A stretch of DNA of 64,000 bases, taken from assembly GCA_938048185.1 (NCBI GenBank), contig CALIVT010000007.1, forward strand, positions 62,001 to 126,000. Reading direction: 5' to 3'. Origin of the DNA: an uncultured Arenicella sp. GTDB lineage: Bacteria > Pseudomonadota > Gammaproteobacteria > Arenicellales > Arenicellaceae. The translations under genes were made by a program, and so were the position numbers. A model generated the notes under the pieces. That model was not told where the DNA came from. It worked only from the letters and a program-made list of their open reading frames with translations, and searched no databases. This document shows, piece by piece, positions 17,715 through 31,515 of this stretch (positions are counted from its first letter, which is position 1; every line of letters begins with the position of its first letter).

Positions 17715-18404
17715 ATGAAAAAATCTGTGTTGAATTGGATTGGTCGAACAATAGCGGTTGTTGCTATTGGCGCGGCCGCTGCGACCAACGTGATGGCGCA
17801 GTCATCGGTCGACAAAGAGTTTGCACGCGAACTCAAGTTGGTTGAAGGCTTGAAAGTCTACAACAAGCAACTCGAGGATCAGCTCAAAGCTCAAGCGGTT
17901 GCTAACCGCGAAATCACCGCCTCGATCGGTAAAGCCCAAGCGCTCGAGCCTCAAGTAGTGCCATTATTAGGTAAGATGTTAGGCGCGTTAGAAGCCTTCG
18001 TTAAGGCTGATTTACCATTCAACAAAGATGAGCGCATGGCGAGTATCTTTAAGTTAAAAGACTTAATGACCAATCCTGAAGCCACAACCTCTAGTCGCTT
18101 TCGTAGCATCATGGATATCTACACTGTTGAGTTAGAGTACGGGAATAATTACGAAGCGTATAAGGAAGTGCAAAACGTAGATGGCTCAGACATCGAAGTA
18201 GATATGTTGCGCATCGGTCGAGTTGCTCTTTATTACCAAACGCCTGATCAGAAGAAATCAGCAATGTGGGATACCGCTAATAAAATGTGGAAAGAGCTAC
18301 CTTCTAGTGTCAACAGAGATATTCGCAAAGCAATCAAGGTGGCGGCTAAAACCACAGCGCCTGAATTGTTAAGCCTGCCATTAACAGCTCCGGAGGGCGC
18401 GTAA
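17715..18404 (+). CDS. DUF3450 periplasmic protein, copy 1 of TonB2-type cluster
   Basis: 229 residues with an N-terminal signal peptide cleaved near residue 28 (VMA-QS), then a long coiled-coil stretch (about 35-75) and the conserved DUF3450 core, including VPLL, FVKADLPF and a GRVALYYQT motif near 170-178. Genes of this family sit at the head of TonB2/TtpC clusters in Vibrio and Shewanella; their biochemical role is unknown. An AGAGG ribosome site precedes the ATG. The C-terminal APEGA codons supply the GGAGGG ribosome site of the next gene, one base after the stop. Confidence 0.85.
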   Translation: MKKSVLNWIGRTIAVVAIGAAAATNVMAQSSVDKEFARELKLVEGLKVYNKQLEDQLKAQAVANREITASIGKAQALEPQVVPLLGKMLGALEAFVKADLPFNKDERMASIFKLKDLMTNPEATTSSRFRSIMDIYTVELEYGNNYEAYKEVQNVDGSDIEVDMLRIGRVALYYQTPDQKKSAMWDTANKMWKELPSSVNRDIRKAIKVAAKTTAPELLSLPLTAPEGA

Positions 18405-18405
18405 C

Positions 18406-19746
18406 ATGAAGCGTTTTATTACAGCAGTTGCTCTAGCAGCTACCCTTTCGATTGCCCCAGCGCACGCGCAGACGGTTGATCAACTCTTAGCTCAAGTCAA
18501 AAACGGTACTTTGCAAAAAAGTAAAGCGGCGGTTGATTTGGAGAATCGATTTCGTTCAGCAGGTGCGGGCAAGGCTACCATCGTTGCAAAGCTTCGCTCT
18601 GACCGCGCAGCCTTAGAGGCTCGCAGTGATGCCCTAGAAGTGCAATACGCGAATAACAACGAAGCCTTAGATGCGCTTCGCAATCAACGTCAAAGCTCGC
18701 TCGGCGACCTAAAGGATTTGTTTGGTTCTGTGCAACAAATCGTTGGTGAGGCGCAAGCTAATTTTGAAACTTCAATTGTGTCGGCTCAATTTCCGGGCCG
18801 TGGTGCTAACTTTGCAGAAATTACGAAGAAGGTTTCAAACCAGTCAAATGACTTGGTAACCGCAGCTGAAATTGAGTCTGTCTGGAAAGCCGTCTTTAAT
18901 GAGATGGCTCAACAAGGCAAAGTCGCCAAGTTTGAAGCCGACGTTGCAACCGCCGGTGGCGCACGCGAGAAGCAACAAGTTGTGCGCGTAGGTGTGTTTA
19001 ACTTGGCTGGCGATGGAAAATTCTTAACGTACGGCAAAGGTGGTGTGGCTGAGTTGCCGCGTCAACCAGATGGCCGCTATTTAAGCCAAGCAAGCGATCT
19101 TTTTAATGCGTCAGGCGAAGGTGCTAATTTCGCACTGGACCCAACCCGCGGCACCTTGTTAGCGGCAGCGGTTGAAAACCCAAGCTTGATGGATCGTGTT
19201 AATCAAGGTGGTCCAGTTGGTTATATTATCTTAACGATTGGTGCGTTAGCGGCGGTGATTGCGATCTTCAAAATCATTACTTTGTTTGGTGTGTCGGCAG
19301 CGGTTAATAAGCAAGCTAAGAACCCAGGCTCACCTTCAGCTAAGAACCCACTCGGTCGTGTGTTGAAGGCAGTACAAGATAGCCCCAGTAAAGACACCGA
19401 GGCGATGGAGCTTCGTTTGTCTGAAGCGATCATGAAAGAAACGCCTAAGCTGACCTCCTGGCTGATGTTCCTGAAGATTGTGTCAGTGGTCGCGCCACTC
19501 GCAGGTCTTTTAGGTACAGTGCTCGGTATGATTGAGACATTCCAATCAATCACGTTGTTCGGCGCGGGAGATCCTAAGTTAATGGCTGGTGGTATTTCTC
19601 AAGCATTGGTGACTACCGTCTGTGGTCTGGTTGTGGCGATTCCAATCGTGTTGCTTCACACGGCTGCGGCATCAAAAGCCAAACGTGTAGAAGAAATTTT
19701 GGAAGAGCAGTCGGCTGGAATGGTCGCTCGTCAAATCGAAGGCTAG
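18406..19746 (+). CDS. ttpC: TtpC-like MotA/TolQ/ExbB proton-channel protein, copy 1
   Basis: 446-residue inner-membrane protein. A signal peptide (1-21, ending AHA) is followed by a periplasmic coiled-coil domain to about residue 265, then three transmembrane helices of the MotA/TolQ/ExbB domain (about 266-290, 345-372, 395-420). Pore-lining threonines are retained in GLLGTV and VTTV. TtpC is the extra component that TonB2 systems of Vibrio need alongside ExbB2, ExbD2 and TonB2. It starts one base after the DUF3450 stop and is translationally coupled to it. Confidence 0.88.
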   Translation: MKRFITAVALAATLSIAPAHAQTVDQLLAQVKNGTLQKSKAAVDLENRFRSAGAGKATIVAKLRSDRAALEARSDALEVQYANNNEALDALRNQRQSSLGDLKDLFGSVQQIVGEAQANFETSIVSAQFPGRGANFAEITKKVSNQSNDLVTAAEIESVWKAVFNEMAQQGKVAKFEADVATAGGAREKQQVVRVGVFNLAGDGKFLTYGKGGVAELPRQPDGRYLSQASDLFNASGEGANFALDPTRGTLLAAAVENPSLMDRVNQGGPVGYIILTIGALAAVIAIFKIITLFGVSAAVNKQAKNPGSPSAKNPLGRVLKAVQDSPSKDTEAMELRLSEAIMKETPKLTSWLMFLKIVSVVAPLAGLLGTVLGMIETFQSITLFGAGDPKLMAGGISQALVTTVCGLVVAIPIVLLHTAAASKAKRVEEILEEQSAGMVARQIEG

Positions 19747-19751
19747 TCGAT

Positions 19752-19803
19752 AGCGATTAGTACACCGATTTATCGCTCTTCTTCTTAAGGTTCTTCCCTT
19801 AAG
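19752..19803 (+). promoter_or_regulatory. Two hairpins between ttpC and exbB
   Basis: The 155-base gap holds AGCGAT/ATCGCT (19752-19757 with 19772-19777) and then a perfect seven-base pair CTTAAGG/CCTTAAG (19784-19790 with 19797-19803) around a six-base loop. No T-run follows. They may mark RNA processing that sets the ratio of TtpC to ExbB. Confidence 0.35.
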
Positions 19804-19901
19804 GCTAAGGCTTACGAACAAGATTAATGTTTTATTGTTGGTAAGCTTTAGCGCAAGAGACGAGTCGGTTTGTAACTTACTCGAAACAGAGGTTTCAAAT
19901 A

Positions 19902-20432
19902 ATGCCAGAATTTATTTTAGTCGCTTATGAGTACATCCGAGATTTTATGGAACTCGGTGGCCCGGTTCTGTACTTAATCGCGGCATTACTTATTATTATG
20001 TGGTTCATGATTATCGAGCGTATTTTCTACATTCGAGGCCCGCATAAAAAGGCAGTTCAAGCGGCGCTAGACGAATGGGAGTCACGCAAAGAACGCAGTT
20101 CGTGGACCGCTCATCAAGTACGAGAGCAGTTGGTATCGAGTGTGGGCAGCAAGCTTAAAGAGAATTTGTCCATGATTCAGGCCTGTGTGGCGCTGGCGCC
20201 TTTATTTGGATTGCTAGGCACTGTTACCGGCATGATTGAGGTATTCCAAGTCATGGCCGTGAATGGCACGTCGAACGCGCGCGCAATGGCTGGTGGTGTA
20301 TCTCGAGCGACTGTGCCGACAATGGCTGGAATGGTTGCGGCATTGTCCGGACTGTTTTTGAGCTTTTGGTTGCAGCGCAAAACTGAACAAGAGCGCGAGC
20401 TTTTGAACGAACACTTAACGCTGGATCACTAA
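19902..20432 (+). CDS. exbB: ExbB-type proton-channel protein
   Basis: 176-residue three-helix MotA/TolQ/ExbB protein lacking the long periplasmic domain of TtpC. Transmembrane segments are at about 17-37, 88-112 and 134-155. The pore threonines are in GLLGTVTGMIEVF and in SRATVPT. With ExbD it forms the proton-driven motor that energises TonB. It is the small ExbB2-like subunit of the complete set at 17.7-23.0 kb. The second set at 23.1-25.8 kb has no counterpart of this gene. Confidence 0.93.
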   Translation: MPEFILVAYEYIRDFMELGGPVLYLIAALLIIMWFMIIERIFYIRGPHKKAVQAALDEWESRKERSSWTAHQVREQLVSSVGSKLKENLSMIQACVALAPLFGLLGTVTGMIEVFQVMAVNGTSNARAMAGGVSRATVPTMAGMVAALSGLFLSFWLQRKTEQERELLNEHLTLDH

Positions 20433-20499
20433 TCATTTTGTTACTGAAATTGCATCGCAAACGTAACTAAATAGATAGTTAATCACAGTAAAAAGAGAA

Positions 20500-20512
20500 C
20501 CCAATAATTGGG
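20500..20512 (+). promoter_or_regulatory. Palindrome overlapping the exbD ribosome site
   Basis: CCCAATAATTGGG is a perfect palindrome whose right arm runs into the GGGAGA Shine-Dalgarno sequence of exbD (start at 20523). Pairing of the outer four bases would hide part of the ribosome site, or the palindrome could be a protein-binding site. Confidence 0.35.
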
Positions 20513-20522
20513 AGAAATGTAA

Positions 20523-20927
20523 ATGAGACGAGCATCAAGAAGTAGGCAAGAAGAAGACGCTAAGATCGACATCACGCCGATGTTGGACGTGGTTTTTATC
20601 ATGCTGATTTTCTTTATCGTAACCGCCAGCTTTATTAAAGAGAGTGGCGCCAAAGTAAACAAGCCGGAAGCGGAAAATGCTGAAAAGATCCCGAAGGCAA
20701 CCGTGTTATTGGCGATTGATGACAATAATGAAATTTGGCTGGATCGGAGAGTCATCGACCCGCGAGCGATTAAAGCCAATATCACTCGTTTACGTGCCGA
20801 AAACCCGGACGGCGACGTGGTGGTGCAAGCTGACGTTGAATCGAACGCGGAAACCGTGATGAAGGTCGTCGATGCGTTAAAAGACGCTGGCATTCCAATC
20901 CCAAACGTGGCGACTAAGTCGGAGTAA
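20523..20927 (+). CDS. exbD: ExbD/TolR-family protein, copy 1
   Basis: 134 residues: a short cytoplasmic tail, one transmembrane helix (about 21-41) and a periplasmic domain. The essential proton-carrying aspartate is D22 in DITPMLDVVF. ExbD forms the core of the ExbB pore and transmits proton flow to TonB. It sits between exbB and tonB, with tonB starting five bases after its stop. Confidence 0.93.
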   Translation: MRRASRSRQEEDAKIDITPMLDVVFIMLIFFIVTASFIKESGAKVNKPEAENAEKIPKATVLLAIDDNNEIWLDRRVIDPRAIKANITRLRAENPDGDVVVQADVESNAETVMKVVDALKDAGIPIPNVATKSE

Positions 20928-20932
20928 TTATC

Positions 20933-21532
20933 ATGGCAAAACCAATTTCATTGATAATGTCTATTTTGGTGACCCTCGGTTTGATTGGTGGCATGTACGC
21001 GCTGATCAAAATGAATGACCCTGAATTAGACGAGAAAAAAGCGTTCAAGCTACCTAAGTTTACTTACGTCGCCAAGAATGAAGATGTGCAAACTATTACG
21101 CCTAAGCCAAAGCGGCCAGATGAGGTGCAAGAACAACCCGACGTACCAGACACCAAAGTGGTGCCAGATCGCGTTGACGTAAACTCAGACCTAGGCCTAG
21201 GTGCCGTGAAAGTCGGTATAAACCGCGATTTGAAAGGCTTTAACTCGAACGATGGCGAGTATTTACCTATCTTCCGTGCGCCACCAATCTTTCCTCGTCG
21301 AGCGCTAGAGCGAGGTGTGTGCGGTTGGGTAGAGTTAACCTATACAGTGACGGCGGCGGGCACAACCAAAGACGCGGTGGTAACGGCTAGCTCTTCAAGC
21401 ATGTTCGAGCGTAATGCGGTCAAAGCAGCGTTGAAATATAAGTACAAGCCACGACAAGTTGGCGGTAAAGCGGTGGACGTACCTGGTGTACCAATCCGGA
21501 TTAAGTTTGAAGTTGAGGGGCAGGACTGCTAA
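20933..21532 (+). CDS. tonB: TonB2-type energy transducer
   Basis: 199-residue TonB protein. One N-terminal transmembrane helix (about 5-25) is followed by a short charged/proline-containing spacer (about 50-80) and the C-terminal TonB domain (about 110-197) with the motif YPR-like FPRRALERGVCGWVEL. The short spacer and lack of a long Pro-Glu/Lys repeat match TonB2 rather than TonB1. It conveys proton-motive energy from ExbB/ExbD to outer-membrane receptors. No TonB-dependent receptor gene is in the window, so the substrate is open. Confidence 0.92.
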   Translation: MAKPISLIMSILVTLGLIGGMYALIKMNDPELDEKKAFKLPKFTYVAKNEDVQTITPKPKRPDEVQEQPDVPDTKVVPDRVDVNSDLGLGAVKVGINRDLKGFNSNDGEYLPIFRAPPIFPRRALERGVCGWVELTYTVTAAGTTKDAVVTASSSSMFERNAVKAALKYKYKPRQVGGKAVDVPGVPIRIKFEVEGQDC

Positions 21533-21664
21533 TCAGGCAGCCTAGAATTGTCAATTTGGTGGTCGCTTTTATTTGGCTGCTCGATGACAGAGAACTCCAT
21601 TTTCTTGCAGCGCTACTTTTGATGCGGCGTTTGTTAAGCAAGAACCACAGTTAGAGGTGAAAAA

Positions 21665-23038
21665 ATGATCGATTTAAAATTTATTCAAGATAAAGGCAAG
21701 TCGTTAGTGGGCGTGAGTATGGTCGCCGCGTTAATGTTGTCTTTAACCACAACGGTCGAAACGTTGGTTCTGGACTCACAGATTGCGCAGGCGCAAAAAA
21801 ATAACCAACCTACGCGAAAGGCTAAACGCGTCGAGTCGATCAGACAGAAGCACATCAAGACCTTCGAGAAAATTCAGTTGGCGTTTGAGGAAGAAAAGAA
21901 CGCGGAAGTTAAGCGTTTACTCGATAAAATGTCTGCCGAGCCAGACCTTAACAATATTGAGAAAGCCTATATAGCAAACTACCGTGGCAATATTTGTTTT
22001 GCGAGTGATAACTTGCCTTGTGCTTTGCGCGAATTTAAGAAAGTAACGTCAACTCGCGAAGGCATTCCTGATGGTTTCTATAACCAAATGTTGTATGTCA
22101 TTGCACAAGTACTATTTTCGCAAGAGAAATACAAAGAGGCCTTGGGCTACGCGCAAACTTGGTTCAAAACGCAAGAAGACCCAAGTGCTGACGCTTTTAT
22201 GTTAGTGGGTCAAGCCCACTATATGCTTAAGGATTACAATCAAGCGCTGCCGAATGTACAAAAAGGCATTGCTAAATACATCGAGTTGGGCAGTGTGCCA
22301 AAAGAAGGCTGGTTGAATCTGCTGAGCAGCATTTACCGTCAAAAAAATGATTTTAAAAAAATGTTGCCGGTTGTTAAACAGCTGGTTCAGCATTACCCGA
22401 AGAAGACCTACCTTTTAACGATGGGTGGAATTTACAACGAGCTGGATGATCAGCCACGCATGACCGCAATGTATCAAGCGATGTATGACAAGGGTTTGCT
22501 TACCTCAGACTCTGAGTTGATTACCTTGGCGTCTTTGAAGATGAGTCAAGATAATCCATACCAAGCCTCGCAAATCATGAAAAAGGGTCTTGATTCTGGC
22601 GTGTTAAAAAAGAACTTAAAAAGCTATCGACTTTACTCTCAAGCCTTATACGCGGCACGCGAGTACGAAGATGCGCTTGGGCCCCTGGAAAAAGCCGCTG
22701 GCTTGGCGAAAGACGGCAAACTCTATAATCAATTAGGCCAATCATTTATTGCATTGAATCGCTGGCGCGAAGGCGAAGTGGCGCTAGGTAAAGCCTTGAA
22801 CAAGGGTGGCTTGGCCAGCTCAGGCCAAACTCTTATTAGTCTTGGCTTAACGCAGTTCGAACAAAAGAAATTCGATGCCGCCGCCAAGACCTTTAGTAGA
22901 GCGCAAAAGTATGAAAAAGTTTCTAGCACCGCCGGAAACTGGATCAAATACGTGCAGGCTGAAGTTCGACGCATTAAAGAGCTAGAGGCGCCGATACAAG
23001 AAATCGATACTAACGTAGAGCCGCTAGCGAATTTGTAG
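21665..23038 (+). CDS. TPR-repeat protein of the TonB2-type cluster
   Basis: 457-residue periplasmic or membrane-anchored protein. An N-terminal hydrophobic segment (about 14-40) ends in a signal-like AQAQ, and tetratricopeptide-type repeats span most of residues 60-440. An equivalent TPR gene closes TonB2 clusters in Vibrio and Shewanella; its role is not defined but a scaffold for channel or receptor components is plausible. AGAGGTGA precedes the ATG. It lies 132 bases after tonB, and the second DUF3450 gene follows after about 110 bases. Confidence 0.8.
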   Translation: MIDLKFIQDKGKSLVGVSMVAALMLSLTTTVETLVLDSQIAQAQKNNQPTRKAKRVESIRQKHIKTFEKIQLAFEEEKNAEVKRLLDKMSAEPDLNNIEKAYIANYRGNICFASDNLPCALREFKKVTSTREGIPDGFYNQMLYVIAQVLFSQEKYKEALGYAQTWFKTQEDPSADAFMLVGQAHYMLKDYNQALPNVQKGIAKYIELGSVPKEGWLNLLSSIYRQKNDFKKMLPVVKQLVQHYPKKTYLLTMGGIYNELDDQPRMTAMYQAMYDKGLLTSDSELITLASLKMSQDNPYQASQIMKKGLDSGVLKKNLKSYRLYSQALYAAREYEDALGPLEKAAGLAKDGKLYNQLGQSFIALNRWREGEVALGKALNKGGLASSGQTLISLGLTQFEQKKFDAAAKTFSRAQKYEKVSSTAGNWIKYVQAEVRRIKELEAPIQEIDTNVEPLANL

Positions 23039-23146
23039 TAGATAATTCGCATTGACGGCTATCGCAAGCGACGAAATTAATAAATATGTCTTGCACAGAG
23101 CAAGAAATTTCCGAGTAACACACTCGGTCATCTTATGAGGTTAAGT

Positions 23147-23932
23147 ATGAGTACAGCAGTACTAAAAGCGGCAAGAAAATGCGCAATATCAGTGAGCATG
23201 GGTGCAATTGCACTGGCTTCTGGTAGCGCTTTTGCCGACAAAACTGATGACATCGTTAACAATGGAACGGCGCGCACTAAGTCGAGCGCGTCGTCACAAA
23301 AACGCATTGACGATATCTCCGAAAAAACCGAAAAAGTAATTTCGCAATATCAACAACAGCGTAAGAATGTTGAAGTCCTCAAGAAGTTCAATGACCGCAT
23401 GCGGCGCACCTTGGTCGCACAAGAAGCCGCGATGAAAAAACTAGAGCAATCTATTGAAGATGCGTCTTTGATTGAACGCCAAATAGTGCCGTTGATGCTA
23501 AGCATGATTGACGGTTTAGAGAAGTTTATCTCGGCTGACATTCCCTTTAAGTTAGACGAACGCAATGATCGCCTTAGTCGTATTAAGGGCTACCTTAATA
23601 ACGCAAACATCTCAGCCGCGGAGCGCTTCCGCCAGGTTTTAGATGCGTATTCTATTGAGAATGCCTATGGTCAAAGTATTGACGTATTTAAAGAAGAGCT
23701 AAGTTTAGATGGCGGCGAAAAAACGGTTAATATTTTGCAAATCGGCAGAGCAGGTTTGTATTATCAAACCACTGACGGCCTGGAGTCAGGCTATTGGGAC
23801 AAAGGCGCAAAGCAGTGGAAAGCGTTAGACTCTTCTCATAACGACGGTATCACTAACGCAATCCGAATCATTCAAGGCAAGCAAGTTAATGACTTGATGA
23901 TCTTGCCAATCGCCGCGCCGGAGGCTATCTAA
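23147..23932 (+). CDS. DUF3450 periplasmic protein, copy 2
   Basis: 261 residues when started at the ATG at 23147, which has TGAGG six bases upstream; the open frame reaches 23135. A signal peptide ends near residue 31 (AFA-DK), then a coiled-coil region and a DUF3450 core clearly homologous to the gene at 17715. Shared landmarks are VPLM, FISADIPF and GRAGLYYQT. A CCGAG/CTCGG hairpin (23111-23127) lies just upstream of the ribosome site. Its final APEAI codons contain the GGAGG that serves the next gene, exactly as in copy 1. Confidence 0.83.
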   Translation: MSTAVLKAARKCAISVSMGAIALASGSAFADKTDDIVNNGTARTKSSASSQKRIDDISEKTEKVISQYQQQRKNVEVLKKFNDRMRRTLVAQEAAMKKLEQSIEDASLIERQIVPLMLSMIDGLEKFISADIPFKLDERNDRLSRIKGYLNNANISAAERFRQVLDAYSIENAYGQSIDVFKEELSLDGGEKTVNILQIGRAGLYYQTTDGLESGYWDKGAKQWKALDSSHNDGITNAIRIIQGKQVNDLMILPIAAPEAI

Positions 23933-25399
23933 ATGACCTCTCTACTCTTTCAAACCCAATCAACGGCAAACGATTCAACTATATCGATGCAAAAAATTAT
24001 TAGAAGTGTATTGGTAGGCGCAACCGCGTCGATACTGAGCATAGGCTCTATTGCTGTAAGCGCTCAGGCGCTGGACGTAAATCAGATACTGAACAACACA
24101 CGTTCAGCAGCATCGAAAGAAAAGAGCGCGAACCAAGCGCGTGAAAGCCGTTTTAAAGCCGAGCGTAATAAGCAACAAGGCCGTTTGAACTCTATGGTAG
24201 CCGAGCGTAATCGCCAGGAACGTATCGGTAAAGAGTTGGAAAGCGCGTTTGAGGCGAACGATGTAAAAATTAATTTACTGCAAGATGAGCTCGCTAAAGA
24301 GCTAGGCGACTTGAAGCAGCTGTTTGGCGTGATTCAATTGTCTGCGTCTGAGGCTCAAGAGTCTTATAAAAAGTCGTATATCAGCGCGCAGTACCCTGAT
24401 CGTGCTGAGAACCTTCGCCGAATGGTCGAGAAAATGGCGAGTCTTACCGATCTTGTTTCGATCGATGAAATCGAAGATTTGTGGTTCCAGCTACAGAATG
24501 AGATGACCGAACAGGGCAAAATTGTTAAATACACGGCGCCTGTGAAGTTCAAGATAGGCGAAGAGCTCGATGACGAAGGCAAAGCCAAAGCTGTGTACGA
24601 GGTTCAAGATCGTGAGATTACACGTATCGGAGTCTTCGGTGCGGTCAGTGGTGATGACATTTTAACCTACTCAGACGCGACCGGTTATGTAGCACTTGAT
24701 CGTAAGATGCGCGGCAGTCGTAGTGATTTCATTCCATTTTCTAAGAATCTACAATCGTTAAGCAGTGGTGTGACTCCGTTCATGCTTGACCCGAGTAAAG
24801 GGGTGCTGTCGAGCGCCTATGTGCAAGCCCCAACAATATTTGAAAAAGTTCAAGAGGGCGGTGTTGTCGGTTACGTTATTATTTCGCTGGGCATCATTGC
24901 CGCACTAATCGCGTTGTTGCGAATTCTTGTTCTTATGGGCGTTGAAGGCCAAGTTAGGAAACAAAGTAAAGATTTGAAGCGACCATCTTTGAAAAACCCA
25001 TTAGGGCGTGTGATCAAAGTTTTCCAAGACAATCCGCACTCCGATCCGGAGTCGATGGAATTGAAGCTTGGTGAAGCCATGCTCAAAGAGTCGCCTAAAC
25101 TCAATGCTTGGATCATGTTTATCAAAATCATCGCCGTTGTTGCGCCGCTATTAGGCTTGCTCGGTACGGTGACCGGTATGATTCAGACATTCCAAGCCAT
25201 CACTCTTTATGGTGCTGGTGATCCACAAACAATGGCTGGCGGCATATCGCAAGCCTTGGTAACCACTGTGCTTGGTTTGGTTGTCGCGATACCTACCGTG
25301 TTCCTACATTGGTTAGCATCAAGCCGCGCCAGACGTATTGAAGGTGTATTAGAAGAACATGCCGCTGGCCTTATTGCTCAGCAATACGAAGCCAAGTAA
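23933..25399 (+). CDS. TtpC-like MotA/TolQ/ExbB proton-channel protein, copy 2
   Basis: 488-residue paralogue of the protein at 18406. It has a signal-like segment (about 25-48 from the first ATG), a long periplasmic coiled-coil domain, and three transmembrane helices in the C-terminal third with GLLGTVTGMIQTF and VTTV pore motifs retained. The start abuts the upstream stop codon and has GGAGG eight bases before it. A second ATG at 23987 gives a more ordinary signal peptide but lacks a ribosome site. No small ExbB follows; exbD copy 2 begins 15 bases later. Confidence 0.86.
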   Translation: MTSLLFQTQSTANDSTISMQKIIRSVLVGATASILSIGSIAVSAQALDVNQILNNTRSAASKEKSANQARESRFKAERNKQQGRLNSMVAERNRQERIGKELESAFEANDVKINLLQDELAKELGDLKQLFGVIQLSASEAQESYKKSYISAQYPDRAENLRRMVEKMASLTDLVSIDEIEDLWFQLQNEMTEQGKIVKYTAPVKFKIGEELDDEGKAKAVYEVQDREITRIGVFGAVSGDDILTYSDATGYVALDRKMRGSRSDFIPFSKNLQSLSSGVTPFMLDPSKGVLSSAYVQAPTIFEKVQEGGVVGYVIISLGIIAALIALLRILVLMGVEGQVRKQSKDLKRPSLKNPLGRVIKVFQDNPHSDPESMELKLGEAMLKESPKLNAWIMFIKIIAVVAPLLGLLGTVTGMIQTFQAITLYGAGDPQTMAGGISQALVTTVLGLVVAIPTVFLHWLASSRARRIEGVLEEHAAGLIAQQYEAK

Positions 25400-25414
25400 G
25401 CAGAGGACGAAAAA

Positions 25415-25825
25415 ATGAAACGATTAGGTAAAGCAAGTACCGAAGAAGAAACCGATATCGACATCACCCCTATGTTGGACGTGGTGTTTATCATGCTGAT
25501 CTTTTTCATCGTAACCGCAAGCTTTGTGAAAGAGTCGGGCCTGGATATTAATAAGCCGCCCGCCTCAAATGAGCCGCCTAACCCAGATGCGCCCAAACCA
25601 ATTGTGATTGAAATTGATAAGCTCAATGAAATTAAGATTGAACGAAACATTGTCGATTTTCGTGCGATTAAGGCAACGGTAACGCGGTTACGAGCCGAGC
25701 GCCCCGAGGCGTCGGTAGTCGTTAAGGTTCATCCTAAAGCTCAGACTAAAGCAATTATTCAGGCGATAGACGGTATTAAATCAGCCAATGTTGCGCAGCC
25801 TACCATTTCTTTAACTGAAGGTTAG
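25415..25825 (+). CDS. ExbD/TolR-family protein, copy 2
   Basis: 136 residues with one transmembrane helix and the conserved aspartate D22 in DITPMLDVVF. The N-terminal 45 residues are nearly the same as in copy 1 while the periplasmic part differs, which suggests a shared channel interface but a different partner. It ends the second DUF3450-TtpC-ExbD set and is followed after 65 bases by a strong terminator. No tonB follows it directly. Confidence 0.9.
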   Translation: MKRLGKASTEEETDIDITPMLDVVFIMLIFFIVTASFVKESGLDINKPPASNEPPNPDAPKPIVIEIDKLNEIKIERNIVDFRAIKATVTRLRAERPEASVVVKVHPKAQTKAIIQAIDGIKSANVAQPTISLTEG

Positions 25826-25890
25826 GAATAGTTTTAGGTAGGTTTAGAGCCGCCAGATAACTGGTTTTTAAATGCCAGTAGATATAAGAA

Positions 25891-25917
25891 AGGCGTACTT
25901 TGGTGCGTCTTTTTTTT
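25891..25917 (+). terminator. Strong intrinsic terminator after exbD copy 2
   Basis: AGGCGTAC pairs with GTGCGTCT (two G-T wobbles) around a TTTG loop and runs into eight T residues. It closes the TonB2-type gene block and isolates the third exbD. Confidence 0.8.
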
Positions 25918-26091
25918 GCAGCATACCGTTGTTCCCAATAGAGACTTCAAAGATTTAACAAAGAGCCTGAAGGGCATTCGCGCCTGCTGAAAGTCGAAAT
26001 TTCATCGAAAGCATGATAGCGTTAAGAGACTGACATGAGGTCAGGACCGACAAATTCGGATTATTGTGATTTTATGATTAAGGAGAACCGT

Positions 26092-26526
26092 ATGTTAACG
26101 AACATAACTCGCCGATTGAATGGCTGCCCCCAGAACGATAATAGCGATGACACCGGTATCGACATAACACCGCTGTTAGACGTGGTGTTTATCGTGTTGA
26201 TATTTTTTATAGTGACCGCGAGTTTCGCGAGAGAGTCTGGCATTGGAATAAATAAACCCGCGAGCGATCACGCTCTTATTAACCCGCCGAGCTCGCTGCC
26301 GATTGTGCTGGACATCAATGCAAATAACGAGATTTCTATTCAGGGCATTCCTTTGCCGGAAACGGCCATCCGGGCCACAATCGTTAGGCTTAAAGCCGAG
26401 CTACCCGAGTCTCAGGTGCTTGTTACCTTGCATCCCAAGGTGCGTACAGCGGCCATGATTTCTGCGTTAGACAAATTACGCAGTGCTAAGATATTTAAGC
26501 CATCGGTTCGTTTGGTTCCGAGCTAA
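26092..26526 (+). CDS. ExbD/TolR-family protein, copy 3
   Basis: 144 residues from the ATG at 26092, which follows AGGAGA by five bases. The open frame reaches an ATG at 26035, but that codon lies in the loop of a CTGAC/GTCAG hairpin (26030-26044) and has no ribosome site. The transmembrane aspartate is D30 in DITPLLDVVF. It is more divergent than copies 1 and 2 and separated from them by a terminator, so it must have its own promoter or depend on readthrough. No ExbB or TonB is adjacent; gap follows after 187 bases. Confidence 0.85.
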   Translation: MLTNITRRLNGCPQNDNSDDTGIDITPLLDVVFIVLIFFIVTASFARESGIGINKPASDHALINPPSSLPIVLDINANNEISIQGIPLPETAIRATIVRLKAELPESQVLVTLHPKVRTAAMISALDKLRSAKIFKPSVRLVPS

Positions 26527-27804: not shown

Positions 27805-29442
27805 ATGACTGAAATGCAGAGTCAACACTCTATTATTGCGTCTCCAATTGGCTCGCGTTTAACTGCGCTGGCTGAAAGTGACAAATCCCGCGGAATCAAA
27901 CAAAAATTTAGCGATGACTCTGAGCGCGTTAATCGATTTTCTTTTGATCACCGAGACGTGCTTTACGACTTTAGTAAAACCCACATCAGCGCAGAGCTGG
28001 TGCAATGCTATTTAGATTTTGCTGAAGAAATCAATTTTACTCAACGGCGTTTGTCGTTGTTTGCGGGTGAGCGAATCAACAACTCTGAAAATCGCTCTGT
28101 ATTACATGCCTTGCTGCGTGATGAAACCAATCAAGCGATAGAAATGGCGGCTCCGAAAGCGATAGTGGAAGCTGCGCAGTCAAAAGCCCAATTTATTGCG
28201 CGTTATGATCAAATTCAGAGCGAATTGGCGAAGCGAAGTACGCCAGTAGAAAATATTATTCACGTTGGTATTGGCGGTTCTTCTCTCGGCACTCAGTTGA
28301 TATTTGAAGCTCTGAAAGACCTCGGTGCTACTATTAGCGTCCACTTCGTCGGTAATATAGACGGTCATCAGTTAGTCGATGTGTTGGCAAAGTGCCAGGT
28401 TGACAATACTCTGGTGATCGGTGTCTCTAAAACGTTTACGACCGCCGAGACCTTGCAAAACCTCAATTCAATTGCCGCTTGGTTTTCACGTCATGGCGTG
28501 GAAAATCCGTTGACGAATTTCTATGGGGTTACCGCGGCTCCTCAAAAGGCTGTCGAGTACGGTCTCTGTGAGGTGAACACGGTTGCTTTTCCAGAATGGG
28601 TCGGTGGGCGCTATTCTGTTTGGTCATCGGTATCGCTGTCAGCAGCATTGGTCATCGGTATGCACAAGTTCGAAGAGCTACTGGCGGGCGCAGCAAGCAT
28701 GGACCAGCACTTTTACCGAAGCGATCTCTCCGAAAACCTGCCATTCTTAAGCGCCGCCTTAGATCACTATTACACTAATTTTCTCAACGTTAAGTCGAGA
28801 GCAATCTTTGCCTATGACTTTCGTTTGCGCTCGTTGGTAGATTATCTCCAACAACTTGAAACTGAGAGCAATGGCAAAGACCGTCAACGCGACGGTGCCG
28901 CGGTTGACCAGCAAACATCTCCGGTGGTTTGGGGGGGCGTTGGCACTGATGTTCAGCATTCGGTATTCCAGATGTTGCACCAGGGAACCGCACTCATTCC
29001 ATCCGAATTTATTCTTGTCAAAAAGCCCGATCATGATTTGCTAATGCACCACAAAGAACTATTAGCCAATGGTCTGGCACAGCCAGCGGCTCTGTTGGCG
29101 GGTCAAAATTACGCTGAGGTAGAGCAGAGGCATGCCCACGAAAATCTGAGCGAACTTACAAAAAAGGCAAAGATTTTCTCTGGCGACAGACCGTCTACAA
29201 CAATTTTGATCGAGCGTTTAAGCCCGCTTAGTCTAGGCGCATTATTAGCGTTCTATGAGCATCGAACCTTCTGTTTTGGCGTGTTCGCGAATATCAATTC
29301 TTATGATCAAATGGGCGTTGAGCTGGGCAAACGCTTAGCTAAGCAGGTTAAGCCCTTACTGTCAGACGGGCAGGCACAAAAAAGCGCAGACGAGTTCGAC
29401 TCGTCCACGCTTAGCGTATTGCGCCGAATTATTTCAGACTAA
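27805..29442 (+). CDS. pgi: Glucose-6-phosphate isomerase
   Basis: 545-residue SIS-fold isomerase interconverting glucose-6-phosphate and fructose-6-phosphate. Family signatures include GIGGSSLGT near 158-166, VSKTFTTAET near 208-217, and the active-site stretch around the WGGVGTDVQHS motif. Length matches E. coli Pgi (549). It is probably co-transcribed with gap. Its stop codon overlaps that of the convergent TonB-domain gene, leaving no room for separate terminators. Confidence 0.95.
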   Translation: MTEMQSQHSIIASPIGSRLTALAESDKSRGIKQKFSDDSERVNRFSFDHRDVLYDFSKTHISAELVQCYLDFAEEINFTQRRLSLFAGERINNSENRSVLHALLRDETNQAIEMAAPKAIVEAAQSKAQFIARYDQIQSELAKRSTPVENIIHVGIGGSSLGTQLIFEALKDLGATISVHFVGNIDGHQLVDVLAKCQVDNTLVIGVSKTFTTAETLQNLNSIAAWFSRHGVENPLTNFYGVTAAPQKAVEYGLCEVNTVAFPEWVGGRYSVWSSVSLSAALVIGMHKFEELLAGAASMDQHFYRSDLSENLPFLSAALDHYYTNFLNVKSRAIFAYDFRLRSLVDYLQQLETESNGKDRQRDGAAVDQQTSPVVWGGVGTDVQHSVFQMLHQGTALIPSEFILVKKPDHDLLMHHKELLANGLAQPAALLAGQNYAEVEQRHAHENLSELTKKAKIFSGDRPSTTILIERLSPLSLGALLAFYEHRTFCFGVFANINSYDQMGVELGKRLAKQVKPLLSDGQAQKSADEFDSSTLSVLRRIISD

Positions 29443-31163
29443 TTTAAGCGAAACTGCACTTTCGTTGATACTGAACCACTGCGCACAGCCAATCCAGTGT
29501 CCTGATTGCGCGATGGTGAGAAGCGCCACTTCTCGACAGACTTGACCGCTGCATTTTCAAAGGTGCCTTTTGGCTCGGCCGAAATTACGTTGATATCCAT
29601 TGGCTTACCTTCGGTAGAGATATAAAACTGAACCTCTACCCAACCTTCGGTGCCACTCTTCAATGCGCGTGAAGGGTAACGCGGTGCTTCGCGACTGATT
29701 ATTTTAGCGGGAATGATTTTTTGTGGTGCGGGCTTCACAACCTCCTCGACCTTGGCAACTTCAACCTCTTTCTCGGCTTCGGCGGCCTCGGCATCAAGTT
29801 TGTCTTGGCGTTCTTTGATTTTTGCAGTCAGGCTTTCCAAGCCAGCTCGATCAACATTTAAGCGCTTAACCAGCGAACTGTACTTTGCGGTATCTTCCAT
29901 GTTTTCTTCGGAGAAACTCTTGTTTGCTAACTCTAAAAGGCCAGCACTCAACGTTTTGACGCGAGGCTCTGAGTTGGATTTACTGATTTTGTTGCTCTTA
30001 AGTGCATTAGACACCAGCGAATAGGCATTACCTTTTTGCGGCGGAATTAAGTTGCCGGCTTCGAGGGCTGCGTCAATTTTGCTGATTAAAACTTGTTCCG
30101 CCTGAAGTGCCGCAACCGCTGATTTTGCGCCCTCGTTCTCGCTGCCGAGTCGTTCGAGTACCGCTGACGTCTTGGCAATTTCTTCGGGGGAGCCGCTCTC
30201 TTGCACCTCTTTTACGCGCGCAGTGATGGCATCACTTAGATCTTTGGCTAACTTGTCGTTCTCTAAATTCAGCGGCTCGATCTGGCGTAGCGAGTCGATC
30301 ACTTCAACCGCTTTATCAAAGTCCGCATTCGCTACGTGTTCGTCGTACAAGCCTCGCAATGATACCGCGATGGCCTTGCGACCTTCATACGCGACTGGGT
30401 CGTAAGGATCAATCGCCAACACCTGGTCATAGTATTCGAGCGCGTTGTCACCTGCAGGGGAAACGTACCGCCCATCAAGTAGCGCGTTAGCCGCTTGTTG
30501 ATTGAGCTCATTTGTCAAAGAGATGTTCGACGCGTCATCCTCCGCCAGTTCGCGTACTAGGTCTGGGGTAGTGTCCACTACATTCTCAACTCTTTTAGAG
30601 TCTTCTCCACCCAAGAATAAGAATGCGAGTACTCCGAGCACGACTACGCCCACGCCGGCATAGATAGCTGGATTAGTTTTCCGACTAGCCGCAAGCGAAT
30701 CGATGCTAGTTTGATTTTCGCTAGGACCGACTGCCATGATGTTTTCGCCAGCGGCTTGTTTTTCGCTCAGCTCTGTGTGTAAGGAAAATGCTGACTTAAA
30801 CGCTAAGAAAATCTGATTTGGGCTAACTGGTTTATTAAATGCACGATAGACCAGTGGCTGAATATTTGATTTCAATATCTCGCCGAGCGACTCCTTTTCT
30901 CCGACTAGCATCAAAACTTGTGTTGGATCAGATTGCTTTAGTTTTATCGCTTGATCAATCGCCTTACTAACAGAATCAGTACTGTCGATATCGAAGATGA
31001 TAATGCCGTTGCCCACAAGTAAATCGGGGTTGTCGAGCGCTTCTTCGACTGATTCACGGGCATTGAAGACTTGCTCACCGGTATTGTTGCCAATAATTGC
31101 TTCTACTACGGCTGAGTCGGCTGAAATAACCAGAGCCGAGGGTATTACGTTTTCTTCGGACAT
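29439..31163 (-). CDS. TonB-domain protein with N-terminal receiver-like cytoplasmic domain
   Basis: 574 residues from the ATG at 31163, preceded by GGGAGGA; the open frame extends to a TTG at 31175. Order: receiver-like domain (about 8-125) with D58/D60 in IIIFDID and K111 in FNKPVSP but without the paired N-terminal acids; a linker; one transmembrane helix (about 167-186); a long helical, TPR-like periplasmic region; a Lys/Glu/Pro spacer; and a C-terminal TonB domain (about 493-574) with YPSRALKSGTEGWVEV. Ordinary TonB proteins have only a short cytoplasmic tail, so the receiver-like head is unusual. It may be the missing TonB of the second ExbD/TtpC set. The link is inferred from proximity. 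Confidence 0.82.
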   Translation of the reverse strand: MSEENVIPSALVISADSAVVEAIIGNNTGEQVFNARESVEEALDNPDLLVGNGIIIFDIDSTDSVSKAIDQAIKLKQSDPTQVLMLVGEKESLGEILKSNIQPLVYRAFNKPVSPNQIFLAFKSAFSLHTELSEKQAAGENIMAVGPSENQTSIDSLAASRKTNPAIYAGVGVVVLGVLAFLFLGGEDSKRVENVVDTTPDLVRELAEDDASNISLTNELNQQAANALLDGRYVSPAGDNALEYYDQVLAIDPYDPVAYEGRKAIAVSLRGLYDEHVANADFDKAVEVIDSLRQIEPLNLENDKLAKDLSDAITARVKEVQESGSPEEIAKTSAVLERLGSENEGAKSAVAALQAEQVLISKIDAALEAGNLIPPQKGNAYSLVSNALKSNKISKSNSEPRVKTLSAGLLELANKSFSEENMEDTAKYSSLVKRLNVDRAGLESLTAKIKERQDKLDAEAAEAEKEVEVAKVEEVVKPAPQKIIPAKIISREAPRYPSRALKSGTEGWVEVQFYISTEGKPMDINVISAEPKGTFENAAVKSVEKWRFSPSRNQDTGLAVRSGSVSTKVQFRLN

Positions 31164-31515
31164 ACATCCTCCCAATAAATTTTGACTGTATAAATGCTGT
31201 TTCTCGTTAACGTCGCGTTGATGCAGTAAGAATGTGACACTGCTTTGTGCAATCTTATATCGAGATTCTTGTCTCGCGCTTAGGTCACGTTTAACATGCT
31301 TTGAGCGCGCTTTAAGTTTACTAACTTCGATACTGCTTAAAAAGTAGGCAAATATAATAGCATCTCAAACGCCATTCGCCACGCTGTCGATTTATGTCAC
31401 CGTCTAAACTGATACTTAAAGCCCGGTGACTTACTTAACAAATACATCTTAACCGTAAGCCAGCCTTTTGTAGACTGACTTTCGTCGGAATTTAGCGGCT
31501 AATTTGCGTGAATGC
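31164..31515. other. Intergenic region between TonB-receiver gene and terC
   Basis: No credible gene. A perfect seven-base inverted repeat GTCACCG/CGGTGAC with a 21-base spacer (31396-31402 and 31424-31430) lies 86 bases beyond the TerC stop on the minus strand, without a T-run. The promoter of the TonB-receiver gene must lie here but no clear sigma70 pair was recognised. Confidence 0.4.

Follow-up and report, generated by a model that had tools for sequence, protein, structure and literature searches.

Why should a complete TonB2-type operon be followed directly by a second set of some of its own genes? This arrangement lies in a 64,000-nucleotide (nt) stretch of DNA from an uncultured Arenicella sp. 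(contig CALIVT010000007.1, positions 62,001 to 126,000), hereafter the window, whose own numbering is used throughout. Six genes at 17715-23038 have the content and order of a TonB2-type (Ttp) system, ttpB-ttpC-exbB-exbD-tonB-ttpD (B-C-b-d-T-P for short), in which ttpB encodes a DUF3450 protein and ttpD a tetratricopeptide repeat (TPR) protein. This set ends 96 nt 5′ of an open reading frame (ORF) beginning at 23135, where a further ttpB-ttpC-exbD series, copy 2, starts (Table 1). An earlier note on this DNA had described the second series as directly following the complete operon, with pore threonines and the ExbD aspartate intact and with no small ExbB, TonB or TPR gene of its own. ORFs, Pfam matches and alignments confirmed this description. 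We conclude that copy 2 is a real, conserved and diverged second arm of the TonB2-type system. Sequence comparison further leads us to favour, with moderate confidence, the reading that copy 2 is an old, lineage-specific and sub-functionalised duplicate of the arm genes, which would supply a second TtpC-ExbD motor arm to the same TonB2-type machine.

Table 1. Genes of the TonB2-type cluster and of copy 2 (window coordinates; TM, transmembrane)
Gene	Coordinates	Strand	Remarks
ttpB1 (DUF3450)	17715..18404	+	First gene of complete TonB2-type operon; coil shortened; Pfam PF11932, 210.3 bits
ttpC1	18406..19746	+	DUF3450-like periplasmic domain plus MotA/TolQ/ExbB channel; Pfam PF01618; sister clade to TtpC2
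small exbB	19902..20432	+	TonB-docking Trp present, TM3 Pro absent
exbD1	20523..20927	+	Aromatic (W) type; Pfam match
tonB of operon	20933..21532	+	Pfam TonB_C
ttpD (TPR protein)	21665..23038	+	TPR matches; position and order as V. vulnificus ttpD2 (PMC6957404)
ttpB2 (DUF3450)	23147..23932	+	Full-length coil; longest ORF from 23135; Pfam DUF3450, 247.8 bits
ttpC2	23933..25399	+	Pfam MotA_ExbB (PF01618), 102.5 bits; intact T412/T445 and P405/P454
exbD2	25415..25825	+	Pfam ExbD (PF02472), 83.1 bits; TM helix and Asp intact; class-conserved aromatic lost (K)
exbD3	26035..26526	+	Later tandem copy of exbD2; Pfam ExbD; some species only

A GAGG motif 6 nt 5′ of the ATG at 23147 favours this start of ttpB2 over the mechanical one at 23135, as the earlier note had proposed, and the ttpC2 ATG is preceded 8 nt upstream by GGAGG, within the 3′ end of ttpB2. 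TtpC2 consists of a likely signal peptide (judged by eye), a helix of ∼96 amino acids (aa), a beta head with an added hairpin, and the channel part. Only ttpB2, ttpC2 and exbD2 were found among + strand ORFs of at least 80 aa within 23039-26034, and no ExbB, TonB or TPR gene; antisense ORFs of 86 and 90 aa were unsearched. ExbB, TonB and TtpD are also absent from the second sets of relatives.

The arrangement recurs across the marine family Arenicellaceae. DUF3450 was detected in 20 of 21 family genomes, the remaining one being a small genome of another genus (G018). Both TtpB types occur in 19 of these 20; in the other (G005), type 1 is accompanied only by a fragment of 65 aa. Two family genomes gave a third DUF3450 match, below cut-off. 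Twenty loci were fetched from 19 relatives, and in all 13 that extend at least 3 kb past ttpD, representing two genera, ttpB-ttpC comes next. The remaining loci end at contig edges, three of them (L051, L054, L066) still with ttpB2 directly after ttpD. Within the family the distance between ttpD and ttpB2 varies from an apparent overlap to 108 nt. Since the same genes stand in the same order in other species, a chance origin of the layout is excluded.

Outside the family, 83 loci were fetched from the order and class, leaving aside those first found in the phylum sample; 67 have ttpD, and 63 have room beyond it. ttpB-ttpC followed ttpD in 0/63, and a lone ttpC did so in two (L110, L122). Room was also available in 72 of 80 named loci, which are the best 80 of 582 confirmed and thus only the nearest: ttpB-ttpC followed ttpD in seven, all of them the same DNA as family loci already counted (identical 600-base stretch), and in none of the other 65. 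The DUF3450 cut-off was passed by 84/377 genomes of the class sample and 70/396 of the phylum sample. Other genomes may likewise occur in both locus sets. In the counts below, repeated Arenicellaceae DNA is omitted from those of Trp and Pro, doubled in those of coils and hairpins and in the Arenicellaceae ExbD linker and aromatic counts, and avoided in the final recount of the ExbD aromatic column, which used non-named loci alone. One locus titled Arenicella (L172) carries copy-1 genes, yet was scored as class in the coil-length and Trp/Pro counts.

Copy 2 forms a clade of its own with a fixed gene order, as the earlier note had asked to be checked. In a TtpC tree of 101 rows, the family's TtpC1 and TtpC2 proteins each formed one clade (support 100), and the two were sisters (support 99). 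Because both clades include both genera, the duplication is older than the split of the two genera; together with the 13/13 loci, this disposes of a recent duplicate confined to single strains. TtpB and ExbD trees agreed with this, though less well supported (91 and 87), and in the window the two copies are 44% (TtpC), 36% (TtpB) and 48% (ExbD) identical. On the tree, exbD3 of the window grouped as a later tandem copy of exbD2. This fast-diverging gene, with TM helix and Asp intact, was seen only in some Arenicella species (the window, L057, L062, L064 and likely L154).

The missing ExbB, TonB and TtpD might suggest that copy 2 is a decaying remnant of a duplicated operon. Such decay is hardly tenable and already contradicted: copy-2 frames are full-length across the family where contigs allow, their pore residues are invariant, and the ratio of nonsynonymous to synonymous substitution rates (dN/dS) for ttpB2, ttpC2 and exbD2 was 0.01-0.08 where dS was computable.

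TtpC1 and TtpC2 of the window are 24% identical in the coil and 35% in the head but 78% in TM2-3, and the TM helices of ExbD1 and ExbD2 do not differ from each other in the window or, with one exception, in the fetched family rows. The motor core was thus kept while the periplasmic parts changed. Class-conserved columns are kept at 47/56 in ExbD1 and 34/56 in ExbD2; the two copies keep 40 and 39 of 52 in TtpB and 111 and 114 of 133 in TtpC, with losses largely in different columns. The shared helices could be read as the mark of an interchangeable paralogue set, mixing with copy 1 for dosage or subunit exchange and having no separate role. We consider this quite improbable, since opposite periplasmic changes are fixed family-wide, the TtpB1 coil being shortened in 18/18 rows and the TtpC2 hairpin lengthened in 18/18, and since ExbD2 lacks a class-wide aromatic residue in every row (see below). 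The TtpB coil has 95 aligned residues in 144/160 class rows and 92 in 12; TtpB1 has 68-73 in all rows, a loss of 22-31 aligned residues that leaves it below the class norm in all 18, and the PF11932 match of ttpB1 begins only at model position 50. The hairpin measures 17 residues in 159/166 class TtpCs (maximum 22) and in all TtpC1 rows; only in TtpC2 is it lengthened, to 30-44 residues. The TtpC coil has 88 aligned residues in 149/166 class rows and 70 in 12, the latter probably belonging to a divergent DUF3450 group (L231-L244).

Single-chain AlphaFold2 models of TtpC2 and TtpB2 (mean pLDDT, the model's per-residue confidence score, 88.9 and 88.5) have a common order: a helix of 96-100 residues, two helices, five strands and a helix. 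An alpha helix rises ∼1.5 Å per residue, so the long helix would measure 14-15 nm. Judged by profile comparison, TtpB resembles the periplasmic domain of TtpC (199 columns aligned across the N-terminal part; probability 94.9, E 4.3e-8), and some ORFs that are TtpC by position beside DUF3450 genes match the DUF3450 model, a few above cut-off. DUF3450 has already been noted as an N-terminal appendage of ExbB-like proteins (PMC12505986). The C-terminal half of TtpC2 matches TolQ and ExbB structures. For TtpB2, Foldseek returned no PDB match at E≤0.001, a PDB sequence search gave one row (E 0.38), and the best VIA-align Z, 6.7, is under the level at which that tool is telling; no fold is assigned, which is not evidence of a new fold.

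The channel itself appears intact. T412 and T445 of TtpC2 align with T148 and T181 of E. coli ExbB, and both threonines occur in 18/18 TtpC2 and 18/18 TtpC1 rows; the TM Asp, D22 in ExbD2, is present in all three ExbDs of the window. With PF01618 and two pore threonines TtpC2 groups with MotA/TolQ/ExbB channels, and with PF02472 and the TM Asp the exbD2 product groups with ExbD/TolR, so that by its pore residues TtpC2 looks able to serve as a channel. E176 of E. coli ExbB was tried as a further pore marker and dropped, its column being Q in 122/166 class TtpCs and K, R or Q in 121/155 class ExbBs.

Residues at the TonB-docking site divide small ExbBs from TtpCs. In E. coli, TonB Ser16/His20 touch ExbB Ser34/Trp38, and Trp38 touches Pro190 of TM3, a proline proposed there as a gating element (PMC12215075), a role that we carry over to TtpC. 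The docking Trp (the W38 column, TolQ-aligned) was present in 150/155 small ExbBs of the class and in 19/19 of Arenicellaceae, and in 0/18 TtpC1 and 0/18 TtpC2, where the column is L in 15/18 TtpC2 rows; TtpC2 therefore falls outside the TonB-docking ExbB/TolQ proteins, which carry this TM1 Trp. Any Trp within four columns of the site was found in 1/166 class TtpCs. Conversely, the TM3 Pro occurs in 164/166 class TtpCs and in all 18 TtpC1 and 18 TtpC2 rows, and in only 13/155 small ExbBs of the class and 0/19 of Arenicellaceae.

A second division concerns the ExbDs. One column of the periplasmic domain is W, Y or F in 136/137 single-ExbD rows outside the family. In the fetched family rows it is W in 18/18 exbD1 products and R, T, K or M in 18/18 of exbD2/exbD3; the window has W, K and S in exbD1, exbD2 and exbD3. 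Nine loci outside the family also have two ExbDs (L087, L088, L089, L108, L110, L122, L123, L129, L203), with W in the second ExbD of 9/9 and a non-aromatic residue in the first of 6/9. The first ExbDs of eight of these stand apart from Arenicellaceae ExbD2 on the tree and imply three changes, of which well-supported branches force two; with so few columns in this tree, it is uncertain how many times two-ExbD loci arose independently. ExbD1, for its part, changed in the linker behind the TM helix (named repeats included for the family): one position there is E or D in 88/92 class rows but K, N or T in 25/25 ExbD1, and in ExbD2/3 it is D in 14/27 and G or P in 13. In about this region Serratia ExbD forms an inter-molecular strand (PMC10771500), and the TonB D-box binds between ExbD protomers (PMC10907165).

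Lacking both the docking Trp and the class-wide periplasmic aromatic of ExbD, TtpC2-ExbD2 probably does not drive TonB directly by itself; alone, the motor would be TonB-blind. This agrees with the earlier suggestion of a TtpC2-ExbD2 channel driving something other than a classical TonB. The further step to a distinct stand-alone machine, in which TtpC2-ExbD2 would act on a separate target (peptidoglycan or a partner in the outer membrane) by turning or pulling a coiled-coil tower of TtpB2 and TtpC2, would be in keeping with 0/18 TtpC2 rows with the Trp, with the loss from ExbD2 of the aromatic and several other class-conserved periplasmic residues, and with intact pores in a separate clade. 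We nevertheless think it unlikely. None of the 20 DUF3450-bearing genomes of the family yielded copy 2 in the absence of the first set, both types occurring in 19/20 and the sets being adjacent in 13/13 testable loci; a search that covered the cluster's own families and the window's neighbours showed no additional partner gene accompanying it; and Vibrio TtpC acts in TonB2 uptake (PMC6957404) even though the Trp is missing from TtpC1 and from almost every other TtpC as well.

We therefore return to a second arm of the same machine, whose assembly, proton flow, joint action and substrate we infer as follows. In Arenicellaceae, the arm genes of such a system, of the Vibrio TonB2 (Ttp) type, were duplicated, and the second copy was retained at the 3′ end of the set. 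By homology and pore residues, TtpC2 and ExbD2 would most likely form a proton-driven 5:2 motor, with the long TtpC2 and TtpB2 helices reaching into the periplasm. Because TtpC has no TonB-docking Trp, this motor would not itself hold TonB; it may act beside, or in mixed complexes with, the upstream ExbB-ExbD1-TonB-TtpD set, giving a single outer-membrane import machine a further arm, for force generation or for gating. Several observations weigh against this interpretation. The Ser paired with the docking Trp occurs in 30/155 class ExbBs and 0/19 of Arenicellaceae (L in 19/19), and no His occurs among the first 40 residues of the window TonB, so that the E. coli docking mode may not apply unchanged. 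Loss of the docking Trp and the ExbD aromatic would also fit a machine using no TonB. Co-occurrence of the two sets is based on one family and 20 genomes, several of them fragmented; dS is saturated and dN/dS undefined in many pairs, making the selection test coarse; and only spacing and strand point to a single transcript.

A wider proposal is speculative, and we put it forward at low confidence: ExbB and TtpC would have split docking (TM1 Trp) from gating (TM3 Pro), TtpC-ExbD would be a second motor, free of TonB, that moves a coiled-coil tower of TtpB and TtpC, ∼14-15 nm long and critical in its length, and where ExbD and TtpC were doubled (in Arenicellaceae and, separately, in the L110/L122 group) each motor would have received an ExbD of its own. 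On the question of why TonB2 systems need a TtpC beside ExbB, which the papers cited here leave open, the Trp/Pro split, the likeness of TtpB to the periplasmic domain of TtpC and the repeated ExbD split supply defined residues and naturally occurring variants; with these, TtpC can be examined for a role as second motor, as gate or as subunit of mixed pentamers. New here are the Trp/Pro division, the ExbD split, the TtpB-TtpC likeness and the changes of coil and hairpin. Searches of open-licence PubMed Central showed no report of the Trp/Pro division or of a duplicated ttpB-ttpC-exbD arm, and the word TtpC is absent from a recent survey and a recent review of these motors.

A scan of the window for consensus matches gave 9 promoter-like sites (14.0 in shuffles) and 19 terminator-like sites (10.7 in shuffles), with neither kind on the + strand between ttpD and ttpB2. 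Terminator-like sites on that strand include two overlapping ones within ttpD (22807-22828), and another lies just 3′ of exbD2, between it and exbD3 (25852-25865). As the scan gives consensus matches only, a single transcript is unproven. No Fur box was found in the window with the 19-bp consensus of PMC6957404 at up to 3 mismatches, so iron control is unsupported.

The two ORFs 3′ of exbD3 we take to be gapA and pgi. Farther on, a 578-aa TonB_C protein with a long N-terminal part (29439-31175, - strand) is syntenic in much of the genus. The earlier note had called it receptor-headed and offered it as a partner of copy 2; at E≤0.001 Pfam gives only TonB_C and no receiver domain. The TonB model found no large TonB beside the cluster in L067 (second genus) or L049, though it may lie elsewhere in those genomes; in L049 its place holds only ORFs 26-31% identical. 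Not being syntenic throughout, it was rejected as an obligate partner. In the assembly, a TolQRA-like run apart, this cluster is the only exbB-exbD-tonB run found. Of the other ExbB/ExbD pairs in the genome, we take one to be TolQR, with a TolA-like ORF behind it, and one precedes an MsbA-like ORF; a further MotA_ExbB match has no adjoining ExbD. An ExbB-ExbD pair of this genome, at L031 (876-1911), lies immediately ahead of an MsbA-like ABC transporter, and the locus gave no TonB_C match.

Variant Ttp operons were also encountered. Fourteen weak class DUF3450 matches (L231-L244) form a divergent group, ordered B-C-b-d-T in 11, B-C-C-d-T in one (L237) and incomplete in two; no ttpD was recognised in them with a model built from Arenicellaceae TtpD. 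By model labels, L106 has the order B-d-C-b-T-P, L195 has no TonB that was found and an ExbD frame of 343 aa (possibly a fusion), and L203 has two TonBs and two ExbDs. L110 (3868-10715, in G325) and L122 (3701-10924, in G272, from another family) carry two ExbDs and a second TtpC after ttpD, in parallel to Arenicellaceae; whole operons of this kind were read only in these two. In the family of G325, two TtpC matches lie ∼4.7 kb apart on one contig in 4/53 genomes (G325, G447, G448, G449); in G441 and G458, two close matches fall on separate contigs.

The first six genes of the window are alike in kind and order to the Vibrio TonB2/TonB3 (Ttp) systems, in which ttpB (DUF3450) comes first and ttpD (TPR) last (PMC6957404). 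The earlier note had rightly placed TtpC beside ExbB, ExbD and TonB there; TtpB and TtpD belong as well, and TonB2-mediated siderophore uptake in V. vulnificus requires each of the six proteins (PMC6957404). The same six-gene set is reported from Teredinibacter (PMC10734418); in Arenicellaceae the extra ttpB-ttpC-exbD follows it. The two-exbD Ttp and BCbddTPC operons of L087-L089, L108, L110, L122, L123 and L129 share an extra ExbD with Arenicellaceae (second ExbD aromatic in 8/8, first non-aromatic in 6/8), and L110 and L122 also the second TtpC after ttpD, but they have no second ttpB and place the extra ExbD in tandem before tonB. The tonB-exbB-exbD1-exbD2 system of Xanthomonas campestris, likened here by description rather than by sequence, has a second ExbD that is dispensable for iron uptake and has another role; TtpB and TtpC are not mentioned in the part of that account used here (PMC3551730). 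With the 5:2 motors of E. coli, ExbBD-TonB and TolQR-TolA, TtpC has the channel fold and pore threonines in common (PMC12215075), whereas it adds a DUF3450-like periplasmic domain and lacks the TonB-docking Trp.

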